Source: an uncultured Cytophagales bacterium
GTDB lineage: Bacteria > Bacteroidota > Bacteroidia > Cytophagales > Thermoflexibacteraceae
Direction of reading: 5' to 3'
Length of the DNA: 64,000 nucleotides
NCBI GenBank assembly: GCA_938039675.1
Contig: CALHUI010000007.1
Span: forward strand, 62,001 to 126,000
Below, piece by piece: positions 4,482 to 61,425 of this stretch. The notes beneath the pieces were generated by a model. The model was not told where the DNA came from and did not search any database. It saw only the letters and a program-made list of their open reading frames with translations. The stretch's first letter is position 1; each line of letters opens with the position of its first letter. The position numbers were made by a program, and so were the translations under genes.

Positions 4482-6020
4482 ATGGAGCAATACTATTCCG
4501 CAATTGCACGGCGATTGATTTACTCCGCTATCTGTCTGTTGTTCTTTACTTCTGCTGCTAATGCCCAGCAGCACTCCATTCAGGATATTCTGGTGTTGTT
4601 GGAGCGCGGTCAGTTCTCTTCTGCGAGCCACTTGTTGCAGGCCAACCTCCAATCTGACCCCTCCGATTTGGAATCGCGCATTCTGTTGGGGTCGCTCATG
4701 GAGCACAACGGTCTTCGGATGGAAGCTATTCGCTTGTGGCAAAAAGGATTGCAAAACAATCAAAGCGATTACCCTTTGCTGATATTCATAGGCGAAAGCT
4801 ACCTGAAAGAAGCCGAAATACAATTGCAGGAAGACACTACGCCAAGTTCGCTCCTGCCTGTCAATACCACGACAACGGACTATGCTCCCTATCTGGATTC
4901 GGCAATAACACATTTTCAGCAAGCAGCCGCTTATTATCCTCACGAAGCCGACCCTTTGCACTTTCTAGCAAATGCTTACCAAATAAAAGGAGACTATGAA
5001 CAGGCTTTGCACTATGCCAATCTGTTGGCGCGAATTTTTCCTTCCGATGAAAAAAATCATACCCTAGCGGGGCTGTTGCTAATGAAGTGTGGAGATTATG
5101 AAAAGGCAAAAAATACGCTTCAAACAAGTCTTTCGCTAAACCCCCAATATACGGCTGCACTAAAAGGACTGGCAGAACTGATGTTGTTCTACTACGACCA
5201 CGTGGAAGATGCAGCCTTATTGATGCGGCAGGCGGCCTTTTATGATTTTATTCCGTCGTTTGTACGTTTATCTTTCCATGATAACAACTATAAGATTTAT
5301 TCAAACCTAACAACCGCTGCCGGAACAGAAAACGAAAATGAACTGCGCAGAATTTTCCTGTCATTATTAGACGACAAATCCGATGAGAGCACGCAATGGA
5401 TGGCACTCATGTTTTGGCATCAGTTAGTGCCTGCCGACTTGGACGAAATCGGCTGGGAAGATTTTGCCCAACGCGGCATGGAAAGCCAACGCCTGATTAT
5501 GGAAATGGCACAGCGTACCGAAAACTGGGTATTGCTTGGCAGACTTTGTAAAGAAATGGTGGCACTGAACATTCCCGGCACATTTGAACTGCTGACTACG
5601 CTGCTGCCCAAAGACAAAATGATGGATTCGCCGCTCCGCATTGCCTACTGTTTGGCAGCCTTAGGAAATGAACTTGCCATTCCTTACCTCATCCGAGAGC
5701 TGCAGTACGATGACACCGAAAACGACAACGACGGCTATCATTTCAGCAAAGAAGGCAGACTGGCAGCCCGCCAGCGTGCCATTTTAGCACTGTCTTACTT
5801 CAATACTGCCACCGCCATTGAAACTCTGCAAAAAGGTCTGCAAAACAGCGAAATCAAACCATATTGCGCTGCTGCCCTGTACCGGCTGACTATGGAGGAA
5901 CAATACCTTGAACCGCTGCGCCAAATGGCCTATCGCAGCGAAAAAAACCTTGAAATTGCACATTTTCTGCGTTTTATTGGTACACGTGAAGCAGACCAAA
6001 TTGCGAGGCTGATGGAATAG
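4482..6020 (+). CDS. Secreted or periplasmic TPR-repeat protein
   Basis: A 512-residue protein with a signal peptide (hydrophobic segment about residues 13-28, A-N-A-Q-Q cleavage region). TPR-like helical repeats occupy roughly residues 35-250, including units around D-P-L-H-F-L-A-N-A-Y-Q-I-K-G-D-Y-E-Q-A-L and N-H-T-L-A-G-L-L-L-M-K-C-G-D-Y-E-K-A. The C-terminal part (about 370-512) is also helical and looks HEAT-like, with repeated A-L-G-N / A-I-L-A-L-S-Y units. It probably works as a protein-protein scaffold in the cell envelope; no enzymatic motif is seen. The stop lies 26 bases before the next gene (a Nudix hydrolase), so the two may be co-transcribed. Specific function is unknown. Confidence 0.8.
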   Translation: MEQYYSAIARRLIYSAICLLFFTSAANAQQHSIQDILVLLERGQFSSASHLLQANLQSDPSDLESRILLGSLMEHNGLRMEAIRLWQKGLQNNQSDYPLLIFIGESYLKEAEIQLQEDTTPSSLLPVNTTTTDYAPYLDSAITHFQQAAAYYPHEADPLHFLANAYQIKGDYEQALHYANLLARIFPSDEKNHTLAGLLLMKCGDYEKAKNTLQTSLSLNPQYTAALKGLAELMLFYYDHVEDAALLMRQAAFYDFIPSFVRLSFHDNNYKIYSNLTTAAGTENENELRRIFLSLLDDKSDESTQWMALMFWHQLVPADLDEIGWEDFAQRGMESQRLIMEMAQRTENWVLLGRLCKEMVALNIPGTFELLTTLLPKDKMMDSPLRIAYCLAALGNELAIPYLIRELQYDDTENDNDGYHFSKEGRLAARQRAILALSYFNTATAIETLQKGLQNSEIKPYCAAALYRLTMEEQYLEPLRQMAYRSEKNLEIAHFLRFIGTREADQIARLME

Positions 6021-12968: not shown

Positions 12969-12995
12969 GTGTATAACTGTCTTAAAACACAAATC

Positions 12996-15365: not shown

Positions 15366-17672
15366 TTGTTTGCCTGTACCCCGATTACGCTTATCGGTAG
15401 GAGCGCATCAATCCCACAAAAAATAATCACCTTAAAACAAGCAGCAACGCCTCCGGATTGGCACCAATGCGGGGCTTTTCCTGTTTCATCGGCAACGACG
15501 GTTTTGTCAATTTTAGGAATGAGGCAGGCAATCCATAATTCATTGCCCCACGACAGCATTAAAAGCTTGTTTACCGATGAGCAGGGTAGTTTCTGGGTAG
15601 GCACTTTTGCAGGTTTGGCACGATAGAAGCCACAACAAAAGCGTTTCCGCACTTTTCGTTTCAATCATGTGGCATTGGGTGAGGTTATCCATGACATCCG
15701 CGCCGGCAACGGGCGCATGTGGGTGTCTACCGAGCATACGATGATGCAATTTGACCGCAAAAACGCCCTCTTTGTCCCGTATCGCATTGCCTCGCCTGCT
15801 TCGGGTTTGCAGTACACCATGCAGGCACTCATCAGCCCCGAGGGCGATTTGCTCATTGGTACAAATCAGGGCTTGGTGAGCATTCGCGCTGCCATTGCCG
15901 ACCTGTACGCAGGGCGTTCGCTGCCGCGTGCTTCTTTCCGTTATGCTAACTATCAGGCAAATACCTTACCTTACAGATGCAAGTACCCTTAGGCGGCTTG
16001 TCGGAACTGACCATTCCTTATCAGGCAGCCAATATCAGGGTATCATTTGCTTCTCCGCATTTTGGCTATCAGGCTGCCCCTGTGTTCAGCTATCGGTTGA
16101 GCCCGTCCAACAGCCGATGGTCAGAACCGACTACCGACAGCGAAATGACATTGGGCAAACTTGCCCCAGCGATTACACACTCTATCTGCGCGTTTTAGGC
16201 CCAAAAGGGATGGAGTTTGCCAACGGAAATACTGATTCGGGTGCGTCCGCCGTTTTGGGAAACGTGGTGGTTTCGCTCATTGGGCTTGGGTTTATCACCT
16301 ACCGCGCCCGCGTGCGCCGCATAGAGCAGCAAAATATGTAACTGGAACGCGTGGTGGAGGAGCGAATTTCACAACTTGCCAGTCAAAAAAATCAATTGGA
16401 ACGCGCTTATCACAATGTGCGCATCATCAGCGAAATGGGGCATCGGATTATGGCGCAGTTACACGGCGAACTGGTAGAGGCTGCCCCATTCCGTGTAGGT
16501 ATTTATGATGACAGCAGCCGTCAGTTAGTATTTTACGGCTTCTGCAATGGTGCGGCCATGCCGCTCATCCGCCGTGAAATTGAGGTAGGGCAAAAACGTT
16601 TTTCTGCTGTGTGTTTTCAATATCAAATGGAAATTGTGATTAATGATTTTGAGAAAGAAGCACCTGAATATATAGCCGATGAACACATTGAATACCAGAC
16701 CGAACAGCCGCTGTCGGCCATTTACCTGCCTCTGACGCTGAACAACAAAGTTATTGGCATATTTACCATGCAGAGTTATCGCAAAAACGCCTATCAGACA
16801 GCCGATGTGGACTTCCTGCGAGCACTGGCGACTTATCTTTCTGTGGCGATTGACAATGCGCGTGCTTACGACCGCTTAGACGAAGCCCGTCGCCAGATAG
16901 CCCGCCGCAATGAGCAAATGATGGGCAGCATCCGCTATGCCGAGCGGATTCAGAAGGCTATCCTGCCTACCGAATCGGACTTACAGGCTTTATTTGAGAA
17001 ATTTTTTATTTGGTATCAGCCCAAAGACATTGTTTCAGGCGATTTCTATTGGTGTCACAGTGAAGATAGGCGCAAATGGGTTGCCGTAGCCGATTGTACC
17101 GGACACGGCGTGCCGGAGCGCTCATGTCTGCCATCGGGCACAGCATCCTGACCGAAACGGTTGCCCGCCGACGCATTGTGCAACCTGCCGAAATTTTACA
17201 AACCGTCCATACTGAAATGCGCAAAGCACTGCAAACCGAAAATGGCATCCATGATGATGGGATGGACATCGCCCTCTGCCTGATTGAAGGCAACAAAGTA
17301 ACTTTTGCAGGAGCTAAACGACCACTGTATGCAGTGAAACCTTCGGGTAATCCGGCTGAAAACCACCTAGTAGAGTTGCGTCCCAATCGGCAGTCTATCG
17401 GTGGCAGATTGCGCAGCAGCAAAACAGCTTTTGAACAGCACACAGTTTCGCTACCTGCCGGAATCATGCTATACCTGACCTCCGACGGTTTAGCCGACCA
17501 ACTAAACGCCAACCGTGAAAAATTGGGCAGCATGACGGTGAAAGAGTTGCTTATAGCACTTGCCCACCTGCCCGTAGAGCGTCAGGCAGAAGAATTATCC
17601 GATATTTTTGACGAGTTCCGGCAAGGCGAAAGCCAACGTGACGACATCTGCGTGCTGGGGATTCGGTTGTAG
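15366..17672 (+). pseudogene. Decayed two-component-propeller sensor with SpoIIE/PP2C phosphatase
   Basis: Remains of a large membrane sensor read in several frames. First comes a beta-propeller blade (N-S-L-P-H-D-S-I-K-S-L-F-T-D-E-Q-G-S-F-W), interrupted by an in-frame TAG at 15624, then a second blade ending at 15992. A Y_Y_Y-like domain follows in another frame (15977 onward), and the signature P-P-F-W-E-T-W-W-F-R occurs in a third frame near 16231-16260. A TAA at 16339 precedes a coiled coil, then a GAF-like domain (about 16400-16870). The phosphatase domain (Q-P-K-D-I-V-S-G-D-F-Y-W, D-C-T-G-H-G-V-P) is broken at 17117, where one G is missing. The rest of the phosphatase continues to 17672. 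The 5' end is missing, since a full protein has many more blades. It is clearly dead. An intact relative lies at 61.4-63.5 kb. Confidence 0.85.
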
Positions 17673-17681
17673 CTGAGCACA

Positions 17682-18006
17682 CGCCAGCCTGATATTAGGC
17701 AAGGGTAACATTTTTTACTACGCATGGAAAGGCTTTTTTCCTCCCAACGAAATGAAGCAAAAATTTCGCTGATGCTGCAAGCTTACAGCAAGCCCGGGCA
17801 ATAGCTAACGATATACAAGAGTGGATGGCTGCAAGTTGGTTGCCGCCGTCGGTTTGCGAAAAATTCCACTGCTGACTCACCGTTCTGTTTTTGGACAAAT
17901 GGCCGTTAATCAGGTTACAAATAAAGCCGGAGTGAATACTACCGAAATAGAAAGTATGTTCTTCGAAGACGAGGCAAAAACTATCCAATGGCTTAGACAC
18001 AGCTGA
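17682..18006 (+). pseudogene. Decayed STAS/SpoIIAA-like small protein gene (copy 2)
   Basis: Begins with I-F-Y-Y-A-W-K-G-F-F-P-P-N-E-M at about 17707-17752 and stops at TGA soon after. It continues in another frame as A-N-D-I-Q-E-W-M-A-A-S-W-L near 17810-17850, then in a third frame as V-G-L-R-K-I-P-L-L-T-H-R-S-V-F-G-Q-M ... F-F-E-D-E-A-K-T-I-Q-W-L to 18006. Its landmarks match the broken gene at 12406-12798. It lies directly after the decayed phosphatase gene, which is the arrangement expected for a SpoIIE-type phosphatase and a STAS substrate (partner switching). That functional link is inference. Confidence 0.6.
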
Positions 18007-41721: not shown

Positions 41722-43992
41722 TTACCATACCCAACTCACACTTAGCCCGCCAAAGAAATTGCGCGGTGCACCCGGGTAGTAGTAGCGCGGCACATTGCCC
41801 GTCGCATTGACCAGAATCATGCTTGCGTAGTGCTCGTCGGTAAGGTTCAGGCAGCCGCCGTACACGTGTGCTGCCAGATGCCCAAACAAAGTCCGCTTGT
41901 AACCCATGCGGCTGTTCAGTACGCGGTAGGCATCCGATTGCAGGGCATTATCGTCGCGCATGGGCATTGCTCCCACAGCCTGCAAGTTCAGCGAGGCATA
42001 CCAACCGATGTCTGTTTGCAGGTCTAAACCTGTGGCGAGTACGTGGCGCGGCACACCCGTCAGCGGATTGCCCGAATAGTCGGCATCTAAATCTTTGAAA
42101 TCTACAAAGCGGTAAGGAGAATAACTGTAATTAACAAATGCCTGTAAAACAGGCTGTTGTTGGCGACTTTTCAGCAAAGTATATTGCAATGCTGCCTCTG
42201 CGCCCGCATGTAGCGTTCGTCCTGCATTGATGCCCACGAAAGTATCATCACCCGTGCGGCGGGCTACCAGCAGGTTGCGGATGTCCATCGCATAAACAGA
42301 AACATCGTATTGCAGATTTTGCCACTGTCCGCGCCAGCCGATTTCGTAGTTCATGCCTGTTTCGGGGCGAATGTCGGGATTGATTTGCCCGCTCGGAGTG
42401 AGTGTTTCTGCCAATGTCGGCGGTGAAAACCCGTGGCTGATGCCGGCAAAAACTGCCTGTTTATCGGAAAAAGCATGATTGAGCGCAAGGCGCGGCGAAA
42501 ATAACGCACCGAAGTTGCGATTGCCCGAAAGGTCGCGGTTGTTGGCGCGGAAAAGGTCGGTGTAGTCGTACTTGGTTTGGTTAAAATTCAGCCCTCCCAC
42601 CAACGTAGTGCGCTCCCGCCAAACAATTTCGGCTTGCGTGAATAAGTTAACATAGCTGCGCTGTTCCTCATTGTCGCTCAGGATAGCACCCTGCCTGCCG
42701 CCTGCATTGCGGTAGGTTTGCCACTTGTAAAATTCACCGTAAATCTCTGTTCCCAGCAAAGCTCTGAAAATCAAATTCTTACCATTATTAGCTTTATATT
42801 GCAGTTTGCCCCTGCCGCCTGTTGCCTGAGCCGATTCGCGTAGGAAGTTGAAAGGGCGCGGTTCGTCGTTGGTGCGCTGCTGCATGAACAGGCTGCTTGT
42901 CAGTTCCCAGTGTGTGCCGAAACGATGTTCTACCGAAGTTCCTGACAGTGTTTTTTGGTAGGCCTCATAACCGCGCAGTGCAAGCCAATTGGCTGCGGCA
43001 GCGCGTGGATTGTTGCGGAAAGTCGCCTCATCAATTGAACTTGGAATATAGGATTTTACCTCTATACGGTTGGCCAGCAGGCTGATTGTCGTATTTTCAC
43101 CTGCATAGAACTGCCCGTGCAGCGAGAGTAGGTTGCGGAAATAAGCACTGTTTTCGCGGAAGCCGTCGGCTTGCTGATAGCCATGCACTAATCGGATGTT
43201 GGCGCGTTCATTGCCCGACTGCACGTGGCTTACGATGCGTTGCAGCCCAAAACTGCCTGCCATGTATTCCGTTCCTATCTGGGATTGCTTAAAAGCCGAC
43301 CGCCAAGCACCAAGCAGCAGCGTACCGCCCAGCCCCGCACCATAAACCGATGAAGATGGACCCTTAATAACTTCTACTCTATCCAAAAGGCTCAGGTCTA
43401 TGTCTTCTAGTGTGGTTTCACCATCGCCCGCAGTGAGCGGAATATCATTGAAGTAGGCGCGAATTTTATTGGTAGAAAACAACGAACGTGAACCTATTCC
43501 TCTGATAATCAATTTATTGGTATTCAGTGTTCCACTTTGCATCAACACTCCCGGAATGCGGTTCAGTGCGGGGGCAATAATCAGGTTGTTGTCGCGCTGC
43601 AAATCGCGAAGGCTGAGCACTGCTACTGCCGCCGGTACGCGCAGCAGCGGTGCATCGGCTTCCATGCCTGTAATCAATACCTCGTTGAGTATGGTGTAGG
43701 TAGCTTGCAAGGCAATGGTAAAACTTCCCGTAGCAGCAGGAACGCGCCACAGCAATGTTTCATAACCTACGTGCGAAAACCGCAACGTATCGCCGACTTT
43801 GATTTCCGTAAGGTTAAAAATACCGTTATTGTCCGTTGCCGTTTGATTTTGCCCATATTGCACCGAAACCTGCGGCAAAGGAAGATTCGTGGCAAGGTCA
43901 ATCACATAACCCCTGATTTGTGCAAGGATAGGCAGCGACAATAGCGTTGCTACAATAAAACAGAGCAGATGTTTGTATGAATCATTAAACAT
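41722..43992 (-). CDS. TonB-dependent receptor (siderophore/cofactor type)
   Basis: A 756-residue outer-membrane receptor with a signal peptide (L-C-F-I-V-A-T-L-L-S-L-P-I-L-A), a carboxypeptidase-like regulatory domain (about 26-100), and a plug with I-I-R-G-I-G-S-R and V-E-V-I-K-G-P-S-S-S-V-Y-G-A-G. The barrel ends in W-V-W. It lacks the SusC-specific long insertion and stands without a SusD partner, so it probably imports an iron complex or similar small molecule. This is inference from family layout. It diverges from the second receptor across a 238-base AT-rich gap. Confidence 0.9.
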   Translation of the reverse strand: MFNDSYKHLLCFIVATLLSLPILAQIRGYVIDLATNLPLPQVSVQYGQNQTATDNNGIFNLTEIKVGDTLRFSHVGYETLLWRVPAATGSFTIALQATYTILNEVLITGMEADAPLLRVPAAVAVLSLRDLQRDNNLIIAPALNRIPGVLMQSGTLNTNKLIIRGIGSRSLFSTNKIRAYFNDIPLTAGDGETTLEDIDLSLLDRVEVIKGPSSSVYGAGLGGTLLLGAWRSAFKQSQIGTEYMAGSFGLQRIVSHVQSGNERANIRLVHGYQQADGFRENSAYFRNLLSLHGQFYAGENTTISLLANRIEVKSYIPSSIDEATFRNNPRAAAANWLALRGYEAYQKTLSGTSVEHRFGTHWELTSSLFMQQRTNDEPRPFNFLRESAQATGGRGKLQYKANNGKNLIFRALLGTEIYGEFYKWQTYRNAGGRQGAILSDNEEQRSYVNLFTQAEIVWRERTTLVGGLNFNQTKYDYTDLFRANNRDLSGNRNFGALFSPRLALNHAFSDKQAVFAGISHGFSPPTLAETLTPSGQINPDIRPETGMNYEIGWRGQWQNLQYDVSVYAMDIRNLLVARRTGDDTFVGINAGRTLHAGAEAALQYTLLKSRQQQPVLQAFVNYSYSPYRFVDFKDLDADYSGNPLTGVPRHVLATGLDLQTDIGWYASLNLQAVGAMPMRDDNALQSDAYRVLNSRMGYKRTLFGHLAAHVYGGCLNLTDEHYASMILVNATGNVPRYYYPGAPRNFFGGLSVSWVW

Positions 43993-53044: not shown

Positions 53045-53584
53045 ATGGAAAAATTGCGATTGTTAAACGGGCAACTCTTAGACCTGACCATGCAGCGCCT
53101 CTGCCACCAATTGGCAGAAAAACACGAGGATTTTGCCCATTCGGTGCTCGTGGGTATGCAGCCGCGCGGGCGCTACTTTGCCGACCGCATCAAGGCGCGT
53201 TTAGACCGCATCACGGGCATTAATGTGCCCATCGGCTACTTAGACATCACGTTCTACCGCGACGACTTCCGCCGACGCAATGCACCCTTGCAGGCAAGCG
53301 AAACGCTGCTGCCCTTTGACGTGGAAGAAAAGCACGTCGTACTGATTGATGACGTACTGTTCACGGGCAGAACCATTCGCGCCGCACTGAGTGCACTGGG
53401 CGAATACGGCAGACCAGCCTCCGTAGAACTGCTGGTACTGATAGACCGCCTGTACAGTCGCGATTTGCCTATTCAGCCCGACTATACGGGGCGCACCGTC
53501 AATAGCATTCTTTCGCAGCGCGTGGTAGTAGAATGGACAGAACAGGGCGCTGCCGAAGATGCCATCTGGTTGGTTACGAAGTAG
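53045..53584 (+). CDS. pyrR: PyrR bifunctional regulator / uracil phosphoribosyltransferase
   Basis: A 179-residue PRTase protein with the PRPP loop V-V-L-I-D-D-V-L-F-T-G-R-T-I-R-A-A-L and the PyrR-like G-M-Q-P-R-G near residue 40. By family it makes UMP from uracil and, in Firmicutes, controls pyr operons by binding mRNA. A regulatory role here is inference. It starts right after the sucD terminator and lies 272 bases before pyrB on the same strand. Confidence 0.9.
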   Translation: MEKLRLLNGQLLDLTMQRLCHQLAEKHEDFAHSVLVGMQPRGRYFADRIKARLDRITGINVPIGYLDITFYRDDFRRRNAPLQASETLLPFDVEEKHVVLIDDVLFTGRTIRAALSALGEYGRPASVELLVLIDRLYSRDLPIQPDYTGRTVNSILSQRVVVEWTEQGAAEDAIWLVTK

Positions 53585-53856: not shown

Positions 53857-54810
53857 ATGGCTGCGCTTTCCGTTAATCATTTGTTAGGCATCAAAGGGCT
53901 GACCACCGAAGACATTGAGCTTATTTTCAATACCGCCGATAAGTTCAAGGAGGTGCTGAATCGCCCGATTCGCAAAGTGCCTTCGCTGCGCGACATTACC
54001 ATTGCCAATATATTTTTTGAAAATTCTACCCGCACGCGCCTGTCTTTTGAGTTGGCGGAAAAGCGACTTTCAGCAGATGTCATCAACTTTTCGGCTTCGA
54101 GCAGTTCGGTAAAAAAAGGCGAAACGCTGCTGGATACGGTAAACAACATTCTGGCAATGAAAGTGGAAATGATTGTGATGCGCCACGCAAGTCCGGGAGC
54201 GCCGCACTTTCTTTCGCGCCATATCAATGCGGCGATTGTCAATGCGGGCGACGGCACACACGAACACCCGACACAGGCACTGCTGGATGCTTACTCCATC
54301 CGCGAAAAGCTCGGCTCGGTTGGCGGCAAAAAAATCGCCATCATCGGCGACATCAGCCACTCGCGCGTAGCTCTTTCCAATATTTTCTGCCTGCAAAAAT
54401 TAGGTGCGGAAGTTATGGTTTGCGGCCCCGCCACGCTTATTCCCAAACATATGGCAAGTTTAGGGGTAAAAGTGGTGCACGACACGCGGCAGGCGTTGGA
54501 ATGGTGCGACGTAGCCAACGTATTGCGCATTCAGTTGGAGCGGCAACAGGGCAAAAACTTCCCTTCGCTGCGCGAATATGCCCGCTACTACGGCATCAAC
54601 GGCAGCCTGTTGCAGCAAGTCGGCAGGCCGATAACCATTATGCACCCCGGTCCTATCAATCGCGGCATAGAGCTTACCAGCGACGTAGCCGACTCGGCGC
54701 AATCCATTATTTTAGACCAAGTGGAAAACGGCGTGGCTATCCGCATGGCAGTCTTGTATCTGCTGGCTCAAAAGATTAAGGTTTATGGCACAGTCGGCAA
54801 GGCAGCGTAA
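53857..54810 (+). CDS. pyrB: Aspartate carbamoyltransferase catalytic subunit
   Basis: A 317-residue protein with the carbamoyl-phosphate motif S-T-R-T-R (57-61, in F-F-E-N-S-T-R-T-R), H-P-T-Q-A-L-L-D and H-P-G-P-I-N-R-G. By family it condenses carbamoyl phosphate and aspartate, the first committed step of pyrimidine synthesis. No pyrI regulatory subunit is adjacent. It is followed by the AT-rich restriction island. Confidence 0.96.
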   Translation: MAALSVNHLLGIKGLTTEDIELIFNTADKFKEVLNRPIRKVPSLRDITIANIFFENSTRTRLSFELAEKRLSADVINFSASSSSVKKGETLLDTVNNILAMKVEMIVMRHASPGAPHFLSRHINAAIVNAGDGTHEHPTQALLDAYSIREKLGSVGGKKIAIIGDISHSRVALSNIFCLQKLGAEVMVCGPATLIPKHMASLGVKVVHDTRQALEWCDVANVLRIQLERQQGKNFPSLREYARYYGINGSLLQQVGRPITIMHPGPINRGIELTSDVADSAQSIILDQVENGVAIRMAVLYLLAQKIKVYGTVGKAA

Positions 54811-54875
54811 CTGATTACCGGATTTTGCGTATTTTTTATAAGACTTTTGGCTAATAAAATTATTTAATTTCTGAT

Positions 54876-55306
54876 ATGGATAAGCTGGATAAAGAGCAAA
54901 AAAGAAAAAATATGCAAGCCATAAAAAGTAAAGGCTCAAAAATCGAGAGTATGCTTGCAAAGGCTCTGTGGAGTCGCGGTTACAGATACAGAAAAAATGA
55001 TAAGACTGTTTATGGTAAACCGGATTTCACCTTCAGGAAACAAAAGATTGCTATATTTTTGGACAGTGAATTTTGGCATGGCAAAGACTGGGAGCAACGA
55101 AAGTTTGACATAAAAAGCAATCAAGAGTTTTGGTATAAAAAAATTCAGAGAAACATAGAAAGAGATAAAGAAGTTAATATTTTTTAACTAACACCGGTTG
55201 GCAGGTAATTCGCTTCTGGGGGCGACAAATAGAAAAAGATTTACTAAATTGCATTCATATCATTGAGAGTAAGCTAAATGAAAGTAAAGGAACAAATACT
55301 GATTGA
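54876..55306 (+). pseudogene. vsr: Frameshifted very short patch repair (Vsr-like) endonuclease
   Basis: The intact part (ATG 54876) reads as Vsr: N-M-Q-A-I-K-S-K-G-S-K-I-E at about 12-24, D50 in K-P-D-F-T-F, F-W-H-G-K at 66-70, and N-I-E-R-D. It ends at TAA 55187, but adding one T to the T6 run just before it continues as T-N-T-G-W-Q-V-I-R-F-W-G-R-Q-I to a stop at 55306, completing a normal-length Vsr tail. The restored end overlaps the methyltransferase start by 29 bases. Vsr repairs T:G mismatches made by deaminated 5-methylcytosine. It lacks the zinc-ligand cysteines of E. coli Vsr, as some Vsr relatives do. Confidence 0.85.
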
Positions 55307-56542
55307 AGAAGTGGGAGGCAAAACATTCCAAGTCAGAATGGTGGAGCCTATGGAATGCGGCAGAGCTGCTTTAACTCATTACTTTCATAATTATGGAAGT
55401 GATACTGTAGAATATTATGAGGATGAGGCAATACGTTATATAAAAAATAATCCGGAGTATCTCGCTTTTAACGAGGAAAATATATCATCGATAACAGAAG
55501 AACAGTTACAGTACCTGTTATTTAATTTTAAGAAGAATATTCCGCTTTCGAGTCCTGAAAATCCACATTTTAAGTTTATTGATTTATTTGCCGGCATAGA
55601 TGGATTCAGGATAGCTATGCAGAATATCGGAGGCAAATGTATTTTCTCAAGTGAATGGGATAAGCAAGCTCAAAAAACTTACGAAGCAAATTTTGGCGAA
55701 GTTCCGTTCGGAGATATTACAAAAGAAGAAACTAAAAAATTTATTCCGGACGGATTTGATATTTTATGTGCCGGTTTCCCTTATCAGGCATTTTCAATTG
55801 CAGGTAAAAGAGGTGGTTTTGAATACACAAGAGGAACACTTTTTTTTGATGTTGCCGAAATAGTTAAAAGAAAACAACCTAAAGCTGTTCTTTTAGAAAA
55901 TGTAAAAGGATTAGTCAGCCACGACCGGGGAAAAACCTTAAAAACAATATTAAATGTTCTCAGAAATGACTTAAATTATTTTGTTCCCGACCCCAAGGTT
56001 CTTAATGCCAGAAATTTTGGTGTCCCGCAAAACAGAGAAAGAATATTCATTGTAGCTTTCAGAAAAGACTTAGGCATCAGTAACTTTAATTATCCTGAGC
56101 CTATTGACAAGAAAGTTGTTTTCAAAGATGTTAAGGAAAAGAACCCTGTCTCTGTTAAATATTATACTTATCAGATGTGTACTTAAGAACCCTTGAAAAT
56201 CACAGAAAAAGACATGAAAGCAAAGGAAACGGATTCGGTTATGAGATTATTCCTGATGATGGAGTAGCTAATGCTGTAGTTTGCGGCGGCATGGGAAGGG
56301 AAAGAAATCTTGTCATTGATAATCGTTTGGTTGATTTCACACCTGTTATAAATATCAAGGGCGAAGTTAACAGGCAGGGGATAAGAAAAATGACACCAAG
56401 AGAATGGGCTAATTTACAGGGTTTTCCGGAGGAATTTGTTATTCCCGTAACCGATGCTTTTGCCTATAAGCAATTAGGGAATTCTGTTGCAGTTCCTGTT
56501 GTTGAAGCAGTTGCAAAAGAAATAATTAAACTGATTACTTAA
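55278..56542 (+). pseudogene. Dead DNA cytosine-5 methyltransferase (catalytic Cys to Tyr, frameshift)
   Basis: The first part (55278-56186) carries C5 methyltransferase motifs I (I-D-L-F-A-G-I-D-G-F), VI (E-N-V-K-G-L) and VIII (Q-N-R-E-R-I-F). In motif IV the canonical G-F-P-C-Q reads G-F-P-Y-Q at 55782-55784 (TAT), so the nucleophilic cysteine is lost. A frameshift after K-Y-Y near 56168 breaks the gene; the other frame continues from about 56177 with the late motifs (R-E-W-A-N-L-Q-G-F-P, Q-L-G-N-S-V-A-V-P) to 56542. Either lesion would inactivate it. Its start overlaps the restored vsr end. Confidence 0.9.
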
Positions 56543-56544
56543 AG

Positions 56545-57193
56545 ATGGATATATTACGTGATTTAAATATTGTTCATGCTAACGACGGACAAGTTTCTTC
56601 AATCTTTGAAAGCCTGTTCCCTTCATTTTTATCGGTTGAATATTCAAGCCCCGCAGATTATGTATCCCAATATTGGCAGGCATATTTGGCTGTGAGAGAA
56701 AAACTGGTATCTAACGAACAAACCAGAAGAAATATTAACGGTAAAATATTTGAGTATATAATTTGCACAGCATTAATCAGAGAAAATATTTTGCCTATTT
56801 TTCTTGGCGCTAAAGTTGCCTTTGTTCCTAATATAAACTATGACTTGCTTTTATACTCTCAAGAAAATGGCCCGATATGCCTCAGTGCCAAAACTTCTTT
56901 CAGGGAAAGATATAAGCGGGCAGATTTGGAAGCTATGGCTTTGAAAAAATGTTCATCGTATTTCAAAAAGCTATTTACTTACACTATCGGATGCCGATGC
57001 TGAGCATGTCAGTAAAAAGATTATCAAAGGTGATACATTTGGTTTAGATGATGTAATTGTTGCTACATCTCCCAGATTTGATCAGTTTATCAGTGAATTA
57101 AAAGAACTTAACTTTTCACTGTCGCCCAATGTATCAGTTATTGAAAGTAATCAAATAATAACAAAACAGAGTCTGAGTAGTATTTCCAAATAA
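56545..57193 (+). pseudogene. Frameshifted type II restriction endonuclease
   Basis: The frame from ATG 56545 contains a PD-(D/E)xK-like core: N-Y-D-L-L-L-Y (D100) then S-A-K (114-116) followed by T-S-F-R-E-R-Y-K-R-A-D-L-E-A. It ends at 57003, but removing one A from the A6 run at 56944-56949 continues as N-V-H-R-I-S-K-S-Y-L-L-T-L-S-D-A-D to a stop at 57193, giving about 215 residues. It starts two bases after the methyltransferase stop, so it is the endonuclease partner. Recognition sequence unknown. Confidence 0.8.
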
Positions 57194-57306
57194 TAAATAT
57201 AACTGCCTGAGAAATGATATCTCCTAAATTCACTTACTCGGATAATTGGTGTAAGTAAGCAAAAGAAAACATCAGAGGGCAGTTGTCATAGCCTTGTTAT
57301 GCTGCC

Positions 57307-60300
57307 ATGTTAACTACCCTCCTTGCCAAAATTATCAGTGGTGCTTATGTTGGCTATGCTACCAACGACTTAGCCATCCAAATGCTGTTCCGCAAACGCT
57401 TTGGGCTGGGGGGCATTGTGTTGCGCACCCGCGATGAGTTTATTGCCAACATCAGCCGATTGGTCGAGCGCGACATCATCAATCACCACACGTTGAGCCG
57501 CGAACTGGTCGAAAACACCGGCGCTTTTCAGGACAGCCTCGCCGATGCTTTGCAGGATTTGGCAGGACGCAGCCTCTGGCTCTATCTGCCTGAAAATGAA
57601 CCGATAAACGCTCTGGCAGGATTTGATGCCTCTGTTCGTCGCATTACCGACAGTACACAGCAACTGTTTCGCGACAAGCGTTTGCAACAGTCTTTGCGGA
57701 ATATTACTGGTGCAGCCAATATAGAGCTGCTGCTGACACCAGATTTACTCACTGCATTAGAAAACCAATTGAGGCACTTGTTACAAGAGTCCCGACAAAC
57801 ACATCCTTTACTTGCCAATACACTTACATACACTGACTTTCAACACCTGACTTTTGCCGATATACTTTTGCCAAAAGACTATGAAATATTGGGTAGGCTA
57901 CTGGCACAACCGCTGCGGCAACTCTACACTGCTGTAGCAGGGAGCGAAAGCACCGAAACCTTTTTTGAAGCCGCCGAGGCGGTGCTGCTCAACCCCGAAT
58001 GGCTGAACCCTGTTGCCGAGAAACTGCGCTCGCAAACTTTGGGAGCTTTGCTGGGCGAAGCAAACGGCAAAGCATTGGTTAATACCCTCGCCGAGCGATT
58101 AGTAGAGTTAGTAAAATCGCCCGAAGGAAAACAAGTACTGGAAAATTTTGCTCAGTTTTTTTGGGAAGTACTTTCACAGGAAAAAACCACCGTTTTTTCA
58201 TTGCTGAATGAAAATCTGGCCGAACGGTTTGCTTCATTTCTGCGGGGCTACTTGCCCGTAGTGCTGCAAAAGTTGATTGAGTGGCTGCAATCGCGCCGCA
58301 ATCGGTTGGAGGCCATCATAGACAGCACTTTCCGAAAAAACATCAAATGGAAGTTTCAGGACATTATCCTGCAACTGTTCGTCGGAAGCATCAGCCAATA
58401 TGCCGATGTGGTGCGCCGCATCACCGATATTTTAGACACACACAGCCAAAATCCCAAGGAAACCGCAACCCTGCTCACCGAGCAGATTATCCGTTTTCTT
58501 AAACAAAACACAATTGGGCAGATTGTCAGTCAATTGCGCCAAAACGATAAGCGCCTGCAATTGGCAGGTGCAAACCCTGCCTTTACAGGCGACCCGCTGG
58601 CAAACTTGCTGCAAAAGGCAATTATCGGGTTGTTGCGGTCTCCGACTGATTCTGTTTTGCAATTTTCTGCACTGGCAGAGCGTCCGCTGAGCAATTTTAT
58701 TACACAGCAAGAAACTGTTAGGCTATTGCAACAAGCCATTGGCTACATCTGGCAGGAACAGATAAAAAAGCGATGGTTATATGCACCACGTTCGGGTGCG
58801 CAACTGGAACGATTGGCAATTGCTTTTATAGAAACGGCTTATTTTCGTCCTTGGGGAGAGTGGGTATCCGGCATGCGATTCCGCAGCCTTTTGCAGCAGG
58901 CCGATAACCGACTGCCACATTTGGTGAAAGGCGCTTTGTTGCAAAATAGGGCTGCCATCGCACACCGAATGCAACTGTGGATAGCTGATTTATCACCTGA
59001 TGCGCAGGAGGCAGCTCAACTGACGGCTGCATACATAGACACAAGTTTGCGACGATTGGGTACGCAGCCGTGGGGCAGTGCACGTGCTGTATTTGATTCA
59101 TGGTCAATTGCATTGCCTGCACGCCTGCAACAACTGCTGCTGCAAAATTTGGAATTTCTGCTTACGGGGCGCATAGAGGCGGTAGTTCGCAACAGCCTCC
59201 AAAAAATGCCTAATGAAAAGTTGCTGGACTTGGTAGAGCGATTTATGGGGCGCGAATTGAAACCCATTACGTTGCTGGGGGCACTGCTGGGCGGTATTGC
59301 AGGTGGAACGCTGGCATTTATGCCTGCTTTCAATACCGAAAACCTGATTTCGTGGGAAGATACGGCACTGGCTGCTGCTGCTTACGGCCTCACGGGATAT
59401 GGTACTAATTGGCTCGCACTGCGAATGATTTTTCGTCCCTATCGCCCGATAGAATGGGCAAAAGGTCGGGCATTGCCGTTTACACCCGGTGTAGTAGCCA
59501 AAAACCAAAGGCGTTTTGCCGAAAATATGGGCAAGTTCGTAGCAGGCGGCCTGCTCAACCCACAAAACATTGCTGCTACTTTTGACGATAAAAAAGAAAC
59601 CATCCACAAACAGGCACAGGAATACATTGCACAACCACACTTGCTGATTCCTGAAAAATGGTTGCAGGAAAACCGCACAGCCATTGCTGTCGCACTAACC
59701 GATTGGGCAGCGCAAGCAGTGCAAAAACACACGCATACGCTCAGCGAAAAAATCGGGCAACGAATTGCTGCATTCTCTGCGGAAAATCTGCCTTGGGAGC
59801 ATATCAATCGGGTTGCCGCAGAGCAGTTGCAAAATGCCGATAGCAGGCAGCAACTGGCGGCAAAAGTGGCAGAAACAATACTGAAACAATTGCAAAACCC
59901 CTCTACCTTCAGCAAGCTTTGGGGAAGCAACTGGAAAAATTATGCAGGCAAACTGACCGAAGAGGTGCTGCCTTTTGCCATGCACACAGCCCAAACCCTG
60001 ACCGCAGATAATTTGCGTAAAGCGTTATTGCCACCTACAGAACAATTGTGGCAACGGTTCAATGAAGCACCGATTGGGCAATACGTAGGCACTTTGCAAC
60101 AGGAAAAACTCAAAATGCGGCTGCATGTTGCGTTAGAACAGCAACTGGCAGACGAATCGCTGCGCGAGTTACTGTACCAACTCATCGAAAATCGGCTGTC
60201 GCAAGAGTTTAGCCCCCATCGGAAAATCAGCGAATTGTTTGACGGCAGGTTGATGGAAGTAATCACCCGCAACTTGGACAGCGTTTTAGATGGGTTCATT

Positions 60301-61425
60301 ACCACTGGTTTAGGCTGGTTGCAGGACAACAAAGAGCTACTCGCCGAAAAAGTTTACGAACAGGCCTATGCACAAAGCAAGGCAGGAGCATTTGTTTACA
60401 AAAGTACCATCAAAGACAGTGTTATTGAACTAGCCAATCAAGGCATCCCTGAATTTTTCAGGCACGAATCTGCAAGTTTAAAAGAACTTATCGGTGCATG
60501 GGCGGAGCAACTGGGCGAAACTCCGCTTTCGGCAGTCGACATAAAGATTGATGAACTGTATCTGAAACAACTCACCGATACGCTGCTGGCCAAGCCCGAA
60601 CTGTGCGATGCTATCATGCGTGCACTCAATCTGCTGGTAGATGAATTGGTAAAAATGCCGGTGGCCTCATTTGCGGGCGTGCTCCAAATCACCGATGCAG
60701 AAATCCTTTGGCAACGCACAGCACCCATAATAGCAGTTGCTTGGCAGGAATTGCAAGCACCTTTGCAGCAGCATTTGCCGGAACTGTTGTCGCTGCTGAT
60801 ACAGGCGGCATTAGAAATAGCCGAACAACTCTGGGGAAAACTTTCGCCCCGCGAAATAACCGCCTCACTCAATACCGATGCCATCGCCAATCGTTTGGAA
60901 GTGGCTGTACGTCATTATCTGTCACAACCAACCACCCGGCAGTGGCTGCAACAGACTTTACGGGAGTGGCAACATCAACTTGCCAATGAACCGCTTGATA
61001 AGTTATTGCCTGCCAACCATTTGGCCTCGCAAGTGGTTGCGCTACTGCAACAACTGCTAACCCATGCAGACAGCCGCCATGCAGTGCAGCAATTTGTGGA
61101 AGAATTATTGAGTGCACTGCTGCCGAAGCTGCCACAAAGCCTTGCTCCTGAAACCCTGCAAGCTCTTGCCGATGCATTAGTAAGTGCAATATTGGAAACG
61201 GCACAGCAACATTTGCCCGCCCTTGTAAATGCGGTGGATATCCGCAAAGTAGTCATCCGCGAGGTATCGGAAATGAACCCCAAAGAAATAGAAAGCCTGT
61301 TTTACAGTTTCGCCGAGCAATATTTCGGAAAATTAATTAACTACGGGTTCGGGTTCGGAGTTGTTTTCGGCTTGGTGATTGACCTTGCCTTGGGCATGGG
61401 CTTGCGCCTGGTTGCAGGCAAGTAG
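57307..61425 (+). CDS. Giant tandem DUF445 membrane protein
   Basis: A 1372-residue protein made of two DUF445-type halves. The signature G-Y-(A/G)-T-N-x-L-A-x-x-M-(L/I)-F-R occurs twice: G-Y-A-T-N-D-L-A-I-Q-M-L-F-R at about 16-29 and G-Y-G-T-N-W-L-A-L-R-M-I-F-R at about 696-709, the second followed by P-Y-R-P-I-E-W. A glycine-rich hydrophobic segment precedes the second copy, and a C-terminal helix (F-G-V-V-F-G-L-V-I-D-L-A-L-G-M-G-L) ends the protein. The rest is long amphipathic helix. DUF445 proteins are usually near 400 residues with one unit. Function unknown; envelope scaffold or ring-like assembly is a guess. Confidence 0.85.
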   Translation: MLTTLLAKIISGAYVGYATNDLAIQMLFRKRFGLGGIVLRTRDEFIANISRLVERDIINHHTLSRELVENTGAFQDSLADALQDLAGRSLWLYLPENEPINALAGFDASVRRITDSTQQLFRDKRLQQSLRNITGAANIELLLTPDLLTALENQLRHLLQESRQTHPLLANTLTYTDFQHLTFADILLPKDYEILGRLLAQPLRQLYTAVAGSESTETFFEAAEAVLLNPEWLNPVAEKLRSQTLGALLGEANGKALVNTLAERLVELVKSPEGKQVLENFAQFFWEVLSQEKTTVFSLLNENLAERFASFLRGYLPVVLQKLIEWLQSRRNRLEAIIDSTFRKNIKWKFQDIILQLFVGSISQYADVVRRITDILDTHSQNPKETATLLTEQIIRFLKQNTIGQIVSQLRQNDKRLQLAGANPAFTGDPLANLLQKAIIGLLRSPTDSVLQFSALAERPLSNFITQQETVRLLQQAIGYIWQEQIKKRWLYAPRSGAQLERLAIAFIETAYFRPWGEWVSGMRFRSLLQQADNRLPHLVKGALLQNRAAIAHRMQLWIADLSPDAQEAAQLTAAYIDTSLRRLGTQPWGSARAVFDSWSIALPARLQQLLLQNLEFLLTGRIEAVVRNSLQKMPNEKLLDLVERFMGRELKPITLLGALLGGIAGGTLAFMPAFNTENLISWEDTALAAAAYGLTGYGTNWLALRMIFRPYRPIEWAKGRALPFTPGVVAKNQRRFAENMGKFVAGGLLNPQNIAATFDDKKETIHKQAQEYIAQPHLLIPEKWLQENRTAIAVALTDWAAQAVQKHTHTLSEKIGQRIAAFSAENLPWEHINRVAAEQLQNADSRQQLAAKVAETILKQLQNPSTFSKLWGSNWKNYAGKLTEEVLPFAMHTAQTLTADNLRKALLPPTEQLWQRFNEAPIGQYVGTLQQEKLKMRLHVALEQQLADESLRELLYQLIENRLSQEFSPHRKISELFDGRLMEVITRNLDSVLDGFITTGLGWLQDNKELLAEKVYEQAYAQSKAGAFVYKSTIKDSVIELANQGIPEFFRHESASLKELIGAWAEQLGETPLSAVDIKIDELYLKQLTDTLLAKPELCDAIMRALNLLVDELVKMPVASFAGVLQITDAEILWQRTAPIIAVAWQELQAPLQQHLPELLSLLIQAALEIAEQLWGKLSPREITASLNTDAIANRLEVAVRHYLSQPTTRQWLQQTLREWQHQLANEPLDKLLPANHLASQVVALLQQLLTHADSRHAVQQFVEELLSALLPKLPQSLAPETLQALADALVSAILETAQQHLPALVNAVDIRKVVIREVSEMNPKEIESLFYSFAEQYFGKLINYGFGFGVVFGLVIDLALGMGLRLVAGK

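Follow-up and report, generated by a model that had tools for sequence, protein, structure and literature searches.

The probable remnant of a vsr-methyltransferase-endonuclease operon between pyrB and a DUF445 gene in an uncultured Cytophagales bacterium

The window, by which we mean the whole stretch of 64,000 nucleotides analysed here (from contig CALHUI010000007.1 of an uncultured Cytophagales bacterium), very probably holds a dead Type II restriction-modification (R-M) operon, inserted between pyrB and a gene of the DUF445 family, in which all three genes are broken: vsr, a C5-cytosine methyltransferase gene (M) and an endonuclease-like gene (R). Such a system is ordinary and its fate is a known one; what is new is that one and the same junction carries two different defence-like cargoes among four genomes. 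The locus is a clean snapshot of the death of an R-M operon, with three broken genes, the composition of the donor still visible, undamaged flanks and congeners in which the junction is empty or otherwise filled. According to excerpts of PMC4176335, how R-M systems arise, die and turn into pseudogenes is still poorly understood. No paper naming this locus appeared in our literature searches, which were made without the name of the organism.

The locus and its genes

The three genes are adjacent and are flanked by pyrB and the DUF445 gene, both with open frames. A sequence-only reading made earlier had placed vsr, a C5 methyltransferase and an endonuclease next to each other at this site, and all three are indeed found there, R by homology. 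In the window genome 2,496 bases separate pyrB and the DUF445 gene, and the blastn similarity to G002, the closest congener, stops at 54837 and restarts at 57307. The features are:

53857-54810, plus strand: pyrB (aspartate carbamoyltransferase), the intact left flank; open frame, 87-97% identical to pyrB of the three congeners
54838-57306, plus strand: inserted stretch, 34.9% G+C, from the end of the G002 similarity to the DUF445 start codon, as delimited by blastn and by the empty junction in G003 and G001
54876-55187, plus strand: vsr, first frame (ORF of 103 aa); Pfam Vsr 1.9e-30, TIGR00632 1.8e-37, E. coli Vsr (1cw0) 4.7e-14
55187-55306, plus strand: C-terminal part of vsr in another frame (39 aa and stop); matches the Vsr C-termini of L015, L020, L021, L028 and L030
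55278-56186, plus strand: C5-cytosine methyltransferase M, first frame (ORF of 302 aa), with Asp108 in motif I and Tyr169 in motif IV; Pfam DNA_methylase 2.9e-73
56177-56542, plus strand: M, second frame, with the target-recognition region and C-terminal motifs; Pfam DNA_methylase 7.6e-19, PDB chains 3lx6/3me5
56545-57003, plus strand: endonuclease-like gene R, first frame (ORF of 152 aa), with K-T-S-F-R-E-R-Y-K-R-A-D-L-E; 50-57% identity to R of L013, L017, L020, L021 and L031, weak RE_BsaWI match
56945-57190, plus strand: C-terminal part of R in another frame; 38-56% identity to R of the same five loci
57191-57306, plus strand: AT-rich tail before DUF445; bases 57187-57306 compared across G000-G003
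57307-61425, plus strand: DUF445-family gene (1372 aa; family name taken from the sequence-only reading), the intact right flank; open frame, 51-93% identical to its counterpart in the three congeners

The tail in front of DUF445 was also considered as a repeated element; this was ruled out, as bases 57187-57306 are single copy in G000 and have no match in G001-G003.

The window vsr contains the Vsr domain, with PF03852 aligned across 74 of 74 positions and TIGR00632 at 128 bits against a cut-off of 97.85. M has the PF00145 domain of C5-cytosine DNA methyltransferases, divided over its two frames, and the second piece also matches NCBIfam PRK10458 (DNA cytosine methylase). Among proteins of known structure, M.HhaI matches the first piece at 2.1e-66, but in the second piece its match spans only 47 C-terminal residues, while chains 3lx6/3me5, which carry the label "Cytosine-specific methyltransferase" and which we take to be Dcm, align with that piece through the target-recognition region. 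For the intact M of L020 (a relative described below) taken as a whole, M.HhaI scores higher than 3lx6/3me5 (250 against 200 bits). The window M differs from all of these in having Tyr for the catalytic Cys, Asp in motif I and a frameshift.

For R the Pfam profile search gives a sub-threshold match to RE_BsaWI (0.0016), which is also under the cut-off in four of the four intact R relatives scanned. PADLOC has no match for the first R piece of the window or for four intact R proteins, and a search of the PDB sequences with the R of L020 returned no relative, the best hits (E 0.48) being unrelated proteins. AlphaFold2 applied to five R relatives gave a mean pLDDT of 46, too low for a fold search. 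However weak the profile match, R has full-length homologues, ORFs of about 206 aa, next to the same M in other genomes. As members of a Type II pair, M is certain and R is a candidate by its homology, with a predicted nuclease activity and a putative specificity shared with M.

As excerpted from PMC4652773, endonucleases of the CCGG family, which includes BsaWI, carry R-(D/E)R behind the catalytic Lys as well as K-X12-13-E; in BsaWI the Lys and the first of these motifs are K165 and R169-D170-R171. Both K-x3-R-E-R and K-x12-E are present in the R of L020, in its relatives and in the window, and the K-x3-R-E-R spacing equals that of BsaWI. However, the spacing from Asp to Lys is 15, against 19 in BsaWI and 21-53 for the family in the same excerpts. 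The motif and the sub-threshold Pfam match suggest that R may be an endonuclease of the CCGG family.

Very probably a complete vsr-M-R operon, of a kind spread over Bacteroidota, entered the junction of pyrB and the DUF445 gene, running in the same direction as both and with no integrase or transposase to be seen. In the working system R, a putative PD-(D/E)XK endonuclease, would have cut a CCGG- or CCNGG-like site unless it was methylated, M would have methylated one cytosine of that site, and Vsr would have started the repair of the T:G mismatch left by deamination of this methylcytosine. A target of this kind is suggested by the Dcm-like piece of M, the motif layout of R and the adjacent vsr. 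R would have lost its function before or together with M, since an earlier loss of M would expose the chromosome to R. It is plausible, as had been proposed from the letters of the stretch, that loss of methylation was tolerated because the endonuclease was also dead.

Damage to the three genes and its possible causes

Compared with relatives there is one frame change per gene, net -1 in vsr, net +2 in M and net +1 in R, which bears out the earlier claim of a single frameshift in each. In vsr the change is located between 55179 and 55186. It had been described as a missing T in a run of six T; the spacing in relatives agrees with the loss, the run at 55180 now having six T. The change in M comes directly after 56165 and lies in no homopolymer run or repeat, and that in R is, as proposed, an extra A in the A6 run at 56944.

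Motif IV of M reads P-Y-Q, with Tyr at residue 169, while P-C-Q and its catalytic Cys are present in 49 of 49 related M ORFs; here the sequence-only reading was exact. Motif I has an Asp in the window, against a Gly in 31 of 31 relatives. More generally, 11 of 137 otherwise invariant columns of M are changed in the window, including the Cys of motif IV and this Gly, compared with 0-5 in each of 31 relatives when these are left out in turn. Set against the most deviant relative, the difference has a Fisher p of 0.08 (11/137 vs 5/144). This count covers 31 of the 49 related M ORFs, without L005-L012, L022, L037-L043, L081 and L090.

In R the motif K-(T/V)-S-L-R-E-R-(Y/W)-K-Q-A-D-L-E has two changes in the window, at a Leu and a Gln that are constant in all 13 relatives, and 4 of 50 invariant columns are changed (counted over 11 of the 13 relatives, without L089 and L090), while the distant R relatives L031 and L081 change 20 and 21. 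In vsr a single invariant column of 39 is changed over both pieces, whereas by the same measure L019 changes 22 and L015, L020, L028 and L030 change 3 or 4; six relatives were used, leaving out L013, L025 and L040-L043 (38-47% identical) and the cut vsr of L079. By invariant columns, decay of R and vsr amounts to little beyond the frameshifts, with no excess over more distant relatives. Three points had not been noted before: Asp in place of Gly in motif I, the pair of changes in the R motif and, out of reach of a reading of the letters alone, the different insert in the closest relative.

The vsr gene does not have a complete frame, its C-terminal part being in another one, and functional products of a Type II R-M system are not encoded, given a frameshift in each gene and P-Y-Q in M. 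From these the locus is a remnant and not a working system.

Two of the three frameshifts sit in runs of six, as would be expected if the genes were intact in the living strain and bases had been miscalled in short A/T runs during sequencing or assembly. As a check on such errors, 40 other genes of the window were compared with G002, whose alignment pieces with the window are 88-95% identical, over 48,279 distinct aligned coding bases. These genes contain 102 homopolymer runs of at least six, of which 101 could be aligned, none with a gap within 2 bases, while in the island a frameshift falls in two of ten such runs (Fisher p 0.007 against 0/101). The 40 genes do have some gaps whose length is not divisible by three, but only in a few places: at 12979, 22691 and 22709 (at most 90 bases from the called starts of two ORFs), as a compensating pair at 41880 and 41887, and at a stop codon at 53582. 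Judged by their positions, we read them as something other than frameshifts inside genes. Sequencing error is an unlikely cause of the lesions, because the 101 runs elsewhere are free of gaps and because neither the third frameshift nor the substitutions can be put down to homopolymers; the latter alter 11 invariant M columns, including the catalytic Cys. We give intact genes in the living strain very little probability.

A forty-first gene, represented by ORF pieces at 15669-17672 (window 15490-17696), is a second decayed gene, with five frame-breaking gaps. Its G002 counterpart has an open frame of 990 aa with two-component regulator propeller, GAF and SpoIIE phosphatase domains, and about 1.6 kb of this gene is missing from the window copy.

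Phase-variable R-M systems exist, and with two of the frame changes within A/T runs the frameshifts could in principle be reversible or bypassed by recoding, leaving active enzymes in some cells. We consider this extremely improbable. A run of six is short by the standards of phase variation, and the M frame change lies outside any repeat; moreover, P-Y-Q would keep M inactive whatever the frame, and each gene is in one frame in the nine intact relatives that have M together with R (L013, L017, L020, L021 and L076-L080).

It is also highly improbable that a truncated product has kept a function, for example as a non-methylating DNA-binding M or as a shortened Vsr. The first vsr frame, a piece of 101 residues, does keep almost every conserved position. 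However, vsr has lost its C-terminal part, the first frame of M stops ahead of the target-recognition region, which is in the second piece, and has lost the motif I Gly, and the remnant is absent from the junction in all three congeners. A dead operon remains the reading that we prefer.

Relatives, base composition and origin

Open-frame versions of the operon, whose presence in relatives had been suggested as a check, exist in other genomes but not at this junction in the congeners. Intact vsr-M-R was found in L020 (a Nitrospirae MAG, MHDW01000173.1), L021 (a Bacteroidales MAG) and L079, where vsr is cut by the end of the locus. In L013 a more distant vsr stands ahead of M-R, and M-R is present in eight further loci, L017, L031, L076-L078, L080, L081 and L090. 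The operons of L020, L021 and L079 resemble the window in their gene order and in a low G+C of 34-36%, and differ from it in having open frames and P-C-Q. Identity to the window for L020 and L021 is 67 and 73% in vsr, 69 and 69% in M, and 55 and 54% in R. In L021, M and R are about 1.1 kb apart (4760-5843).

The M relatives, at 31 loci, are scattered across Bacteroidota; a few belong to Nitrospirae, Spirochaetes and other groups. R is rare: with the R of L020 as query it was found in 6 of 294 further genomes from the class, and with the first R piece of the window in 1 of 394 further genomes at the level of the phylum and 1 of 389 at that of the order. Possible mobile carriers were searched as well. 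In viral contigs the first M piece had eight pattern matches and no relative. Phage records contain distant M relatives in 1434 cases, only two of them at 60-80% identity (unannotated, from human faeces), and R relatives occur in three plasmid records at 37-42% identity.

The island is clearly set apart by its composition. Positions 54876-57193 have 35.0% G+C, and the lowest of all 2,318-base segments of the 64 kb starts at 54851 with 34.8%, compared with a mean of 47.0% and a lowest value elsewhere of 42.9%. The earlier G/C counts of 19, 35 and 33 of 60 for short stretches inside and beside the island were recounted and are exact. Eleven related systems have 32-37% G+C, in surroundings of 27-43%. 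As low G+C is thus normal for the intact relatives, it marks the origin of the island and not its decay. The view of the locus as a horizontally acquired system that is losing function is supported by the missing counterpart in three congeners, the scattered relatives, the three frameshifts and the broken catalytic motifs.

In the M tree the window M is sister to that of L013 (a Paludibacter MAG) with a support of 66, and its terminal branch is 0.42 against 0.04 for L013. With L014 as outgroup, changes unique to the window number 106 at codon positions 1+2 and 93 at position 3, compared with 20 and 67 unique to L013. The median pN/pS is hardly different between window pairs (0.27) and other pairs (0.25), with third positions near saturation. 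In the tree of R, made with all 13 relatives, the window R groups with L081 outside the close cluster, with a support of 84.

The nearest relatives of M (L013, support 66) and R (L081, support 84) are therefore different ones. The operon may combine modules of different origin, although this is too weak for a claim. An order of loss from R to M to vsr is hinted at by the divergence of the three genes; it was dropped, since the R tree puts the window R beside L081 and the divergence of R then reflects, at least partly, another R lineage. We thus claim no order of loss from divergence.

The junction within the genus

The pyrB-DUF445 junction was compared in four genomes of the genus, the window genome and G001, G002 and G003. 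Outside the genus, pyrB and DUF445 are on different contigs in eight of eight other family members searched, so the junction is comparable only within it. The distance between the pyrB and DUF445 matches is 34 bases in G003, 24 in G001 and 2,058 in G002, and none of the three congeners has a counterpart of the R-M island at the junction. G002 is the closest of them, with 97% identity in pyrB and 93% in the DUF445 gene.

The G002 insert has no similarity to the R-M island. It consists of two open frames, an ATPase (394 aa; L044:2681-3865) and a DUF4276 protein (191 aa; L055:869-1444), which match Pfam AAA_21 (7.2e-31) and DUF4276 (7.4e-10) and the PADLOC models of HEC-01 (1.1e-201 and 1.7e-44). 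By these matches the insert is a HEC-01-like pair and a candidate for a defence function. HEC stands for Hma-embedded candidate, and several HECs, as a group, have shown antiviral activity according to PMC12988326.

Both inserts share the orientation of pyrB and DUF445 and run right up to the start codon of DUF445. The genes of the two inserts, scanned as far as the larger ORFs, include no apparent integrase or transposase, and no tRNA or transposon was seen. With two empty junctions, one ATPase/DUF4276 pair and one R-M remnant, the junction has the look of a small site where defence genes are turned over, four genomes being too few for a firm hotspot. In the defence turnover sites described in excerpts of PMC10121019, a gap between core genes is likewise empty or holds different defence genes; the E. 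coli islands treated there are mostly on mobile elements, unlike the two inserts. The remnant also fits PMC4176335, which reports frequent loss of complete R-M systems and a transfer that more often takes place on their own or within small elements.

A broader reading can be put forward tentatively, as possible but somewhat doubtful. The junction, probably within one transcript, would be a recurrent landing site in the genus for small co-oriented defence cassettes, which arrive directly before the DUF445 start codon without an integrase and in time give way to others or decay; the R-M operon, dead here, and the HEC-01-like pair, intact in G002, would then be two stages of this process. Should further cassettes turn up at this point in more genomes of the genus, the junction would become a tractable case of integrase-free turnover of defence genes.

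The DUF445 gene itself evolves fast in the genus, with identities of 93, 69 and 51% to the window, compared with 97, 95 and 87% for the neighbouring pyrB.
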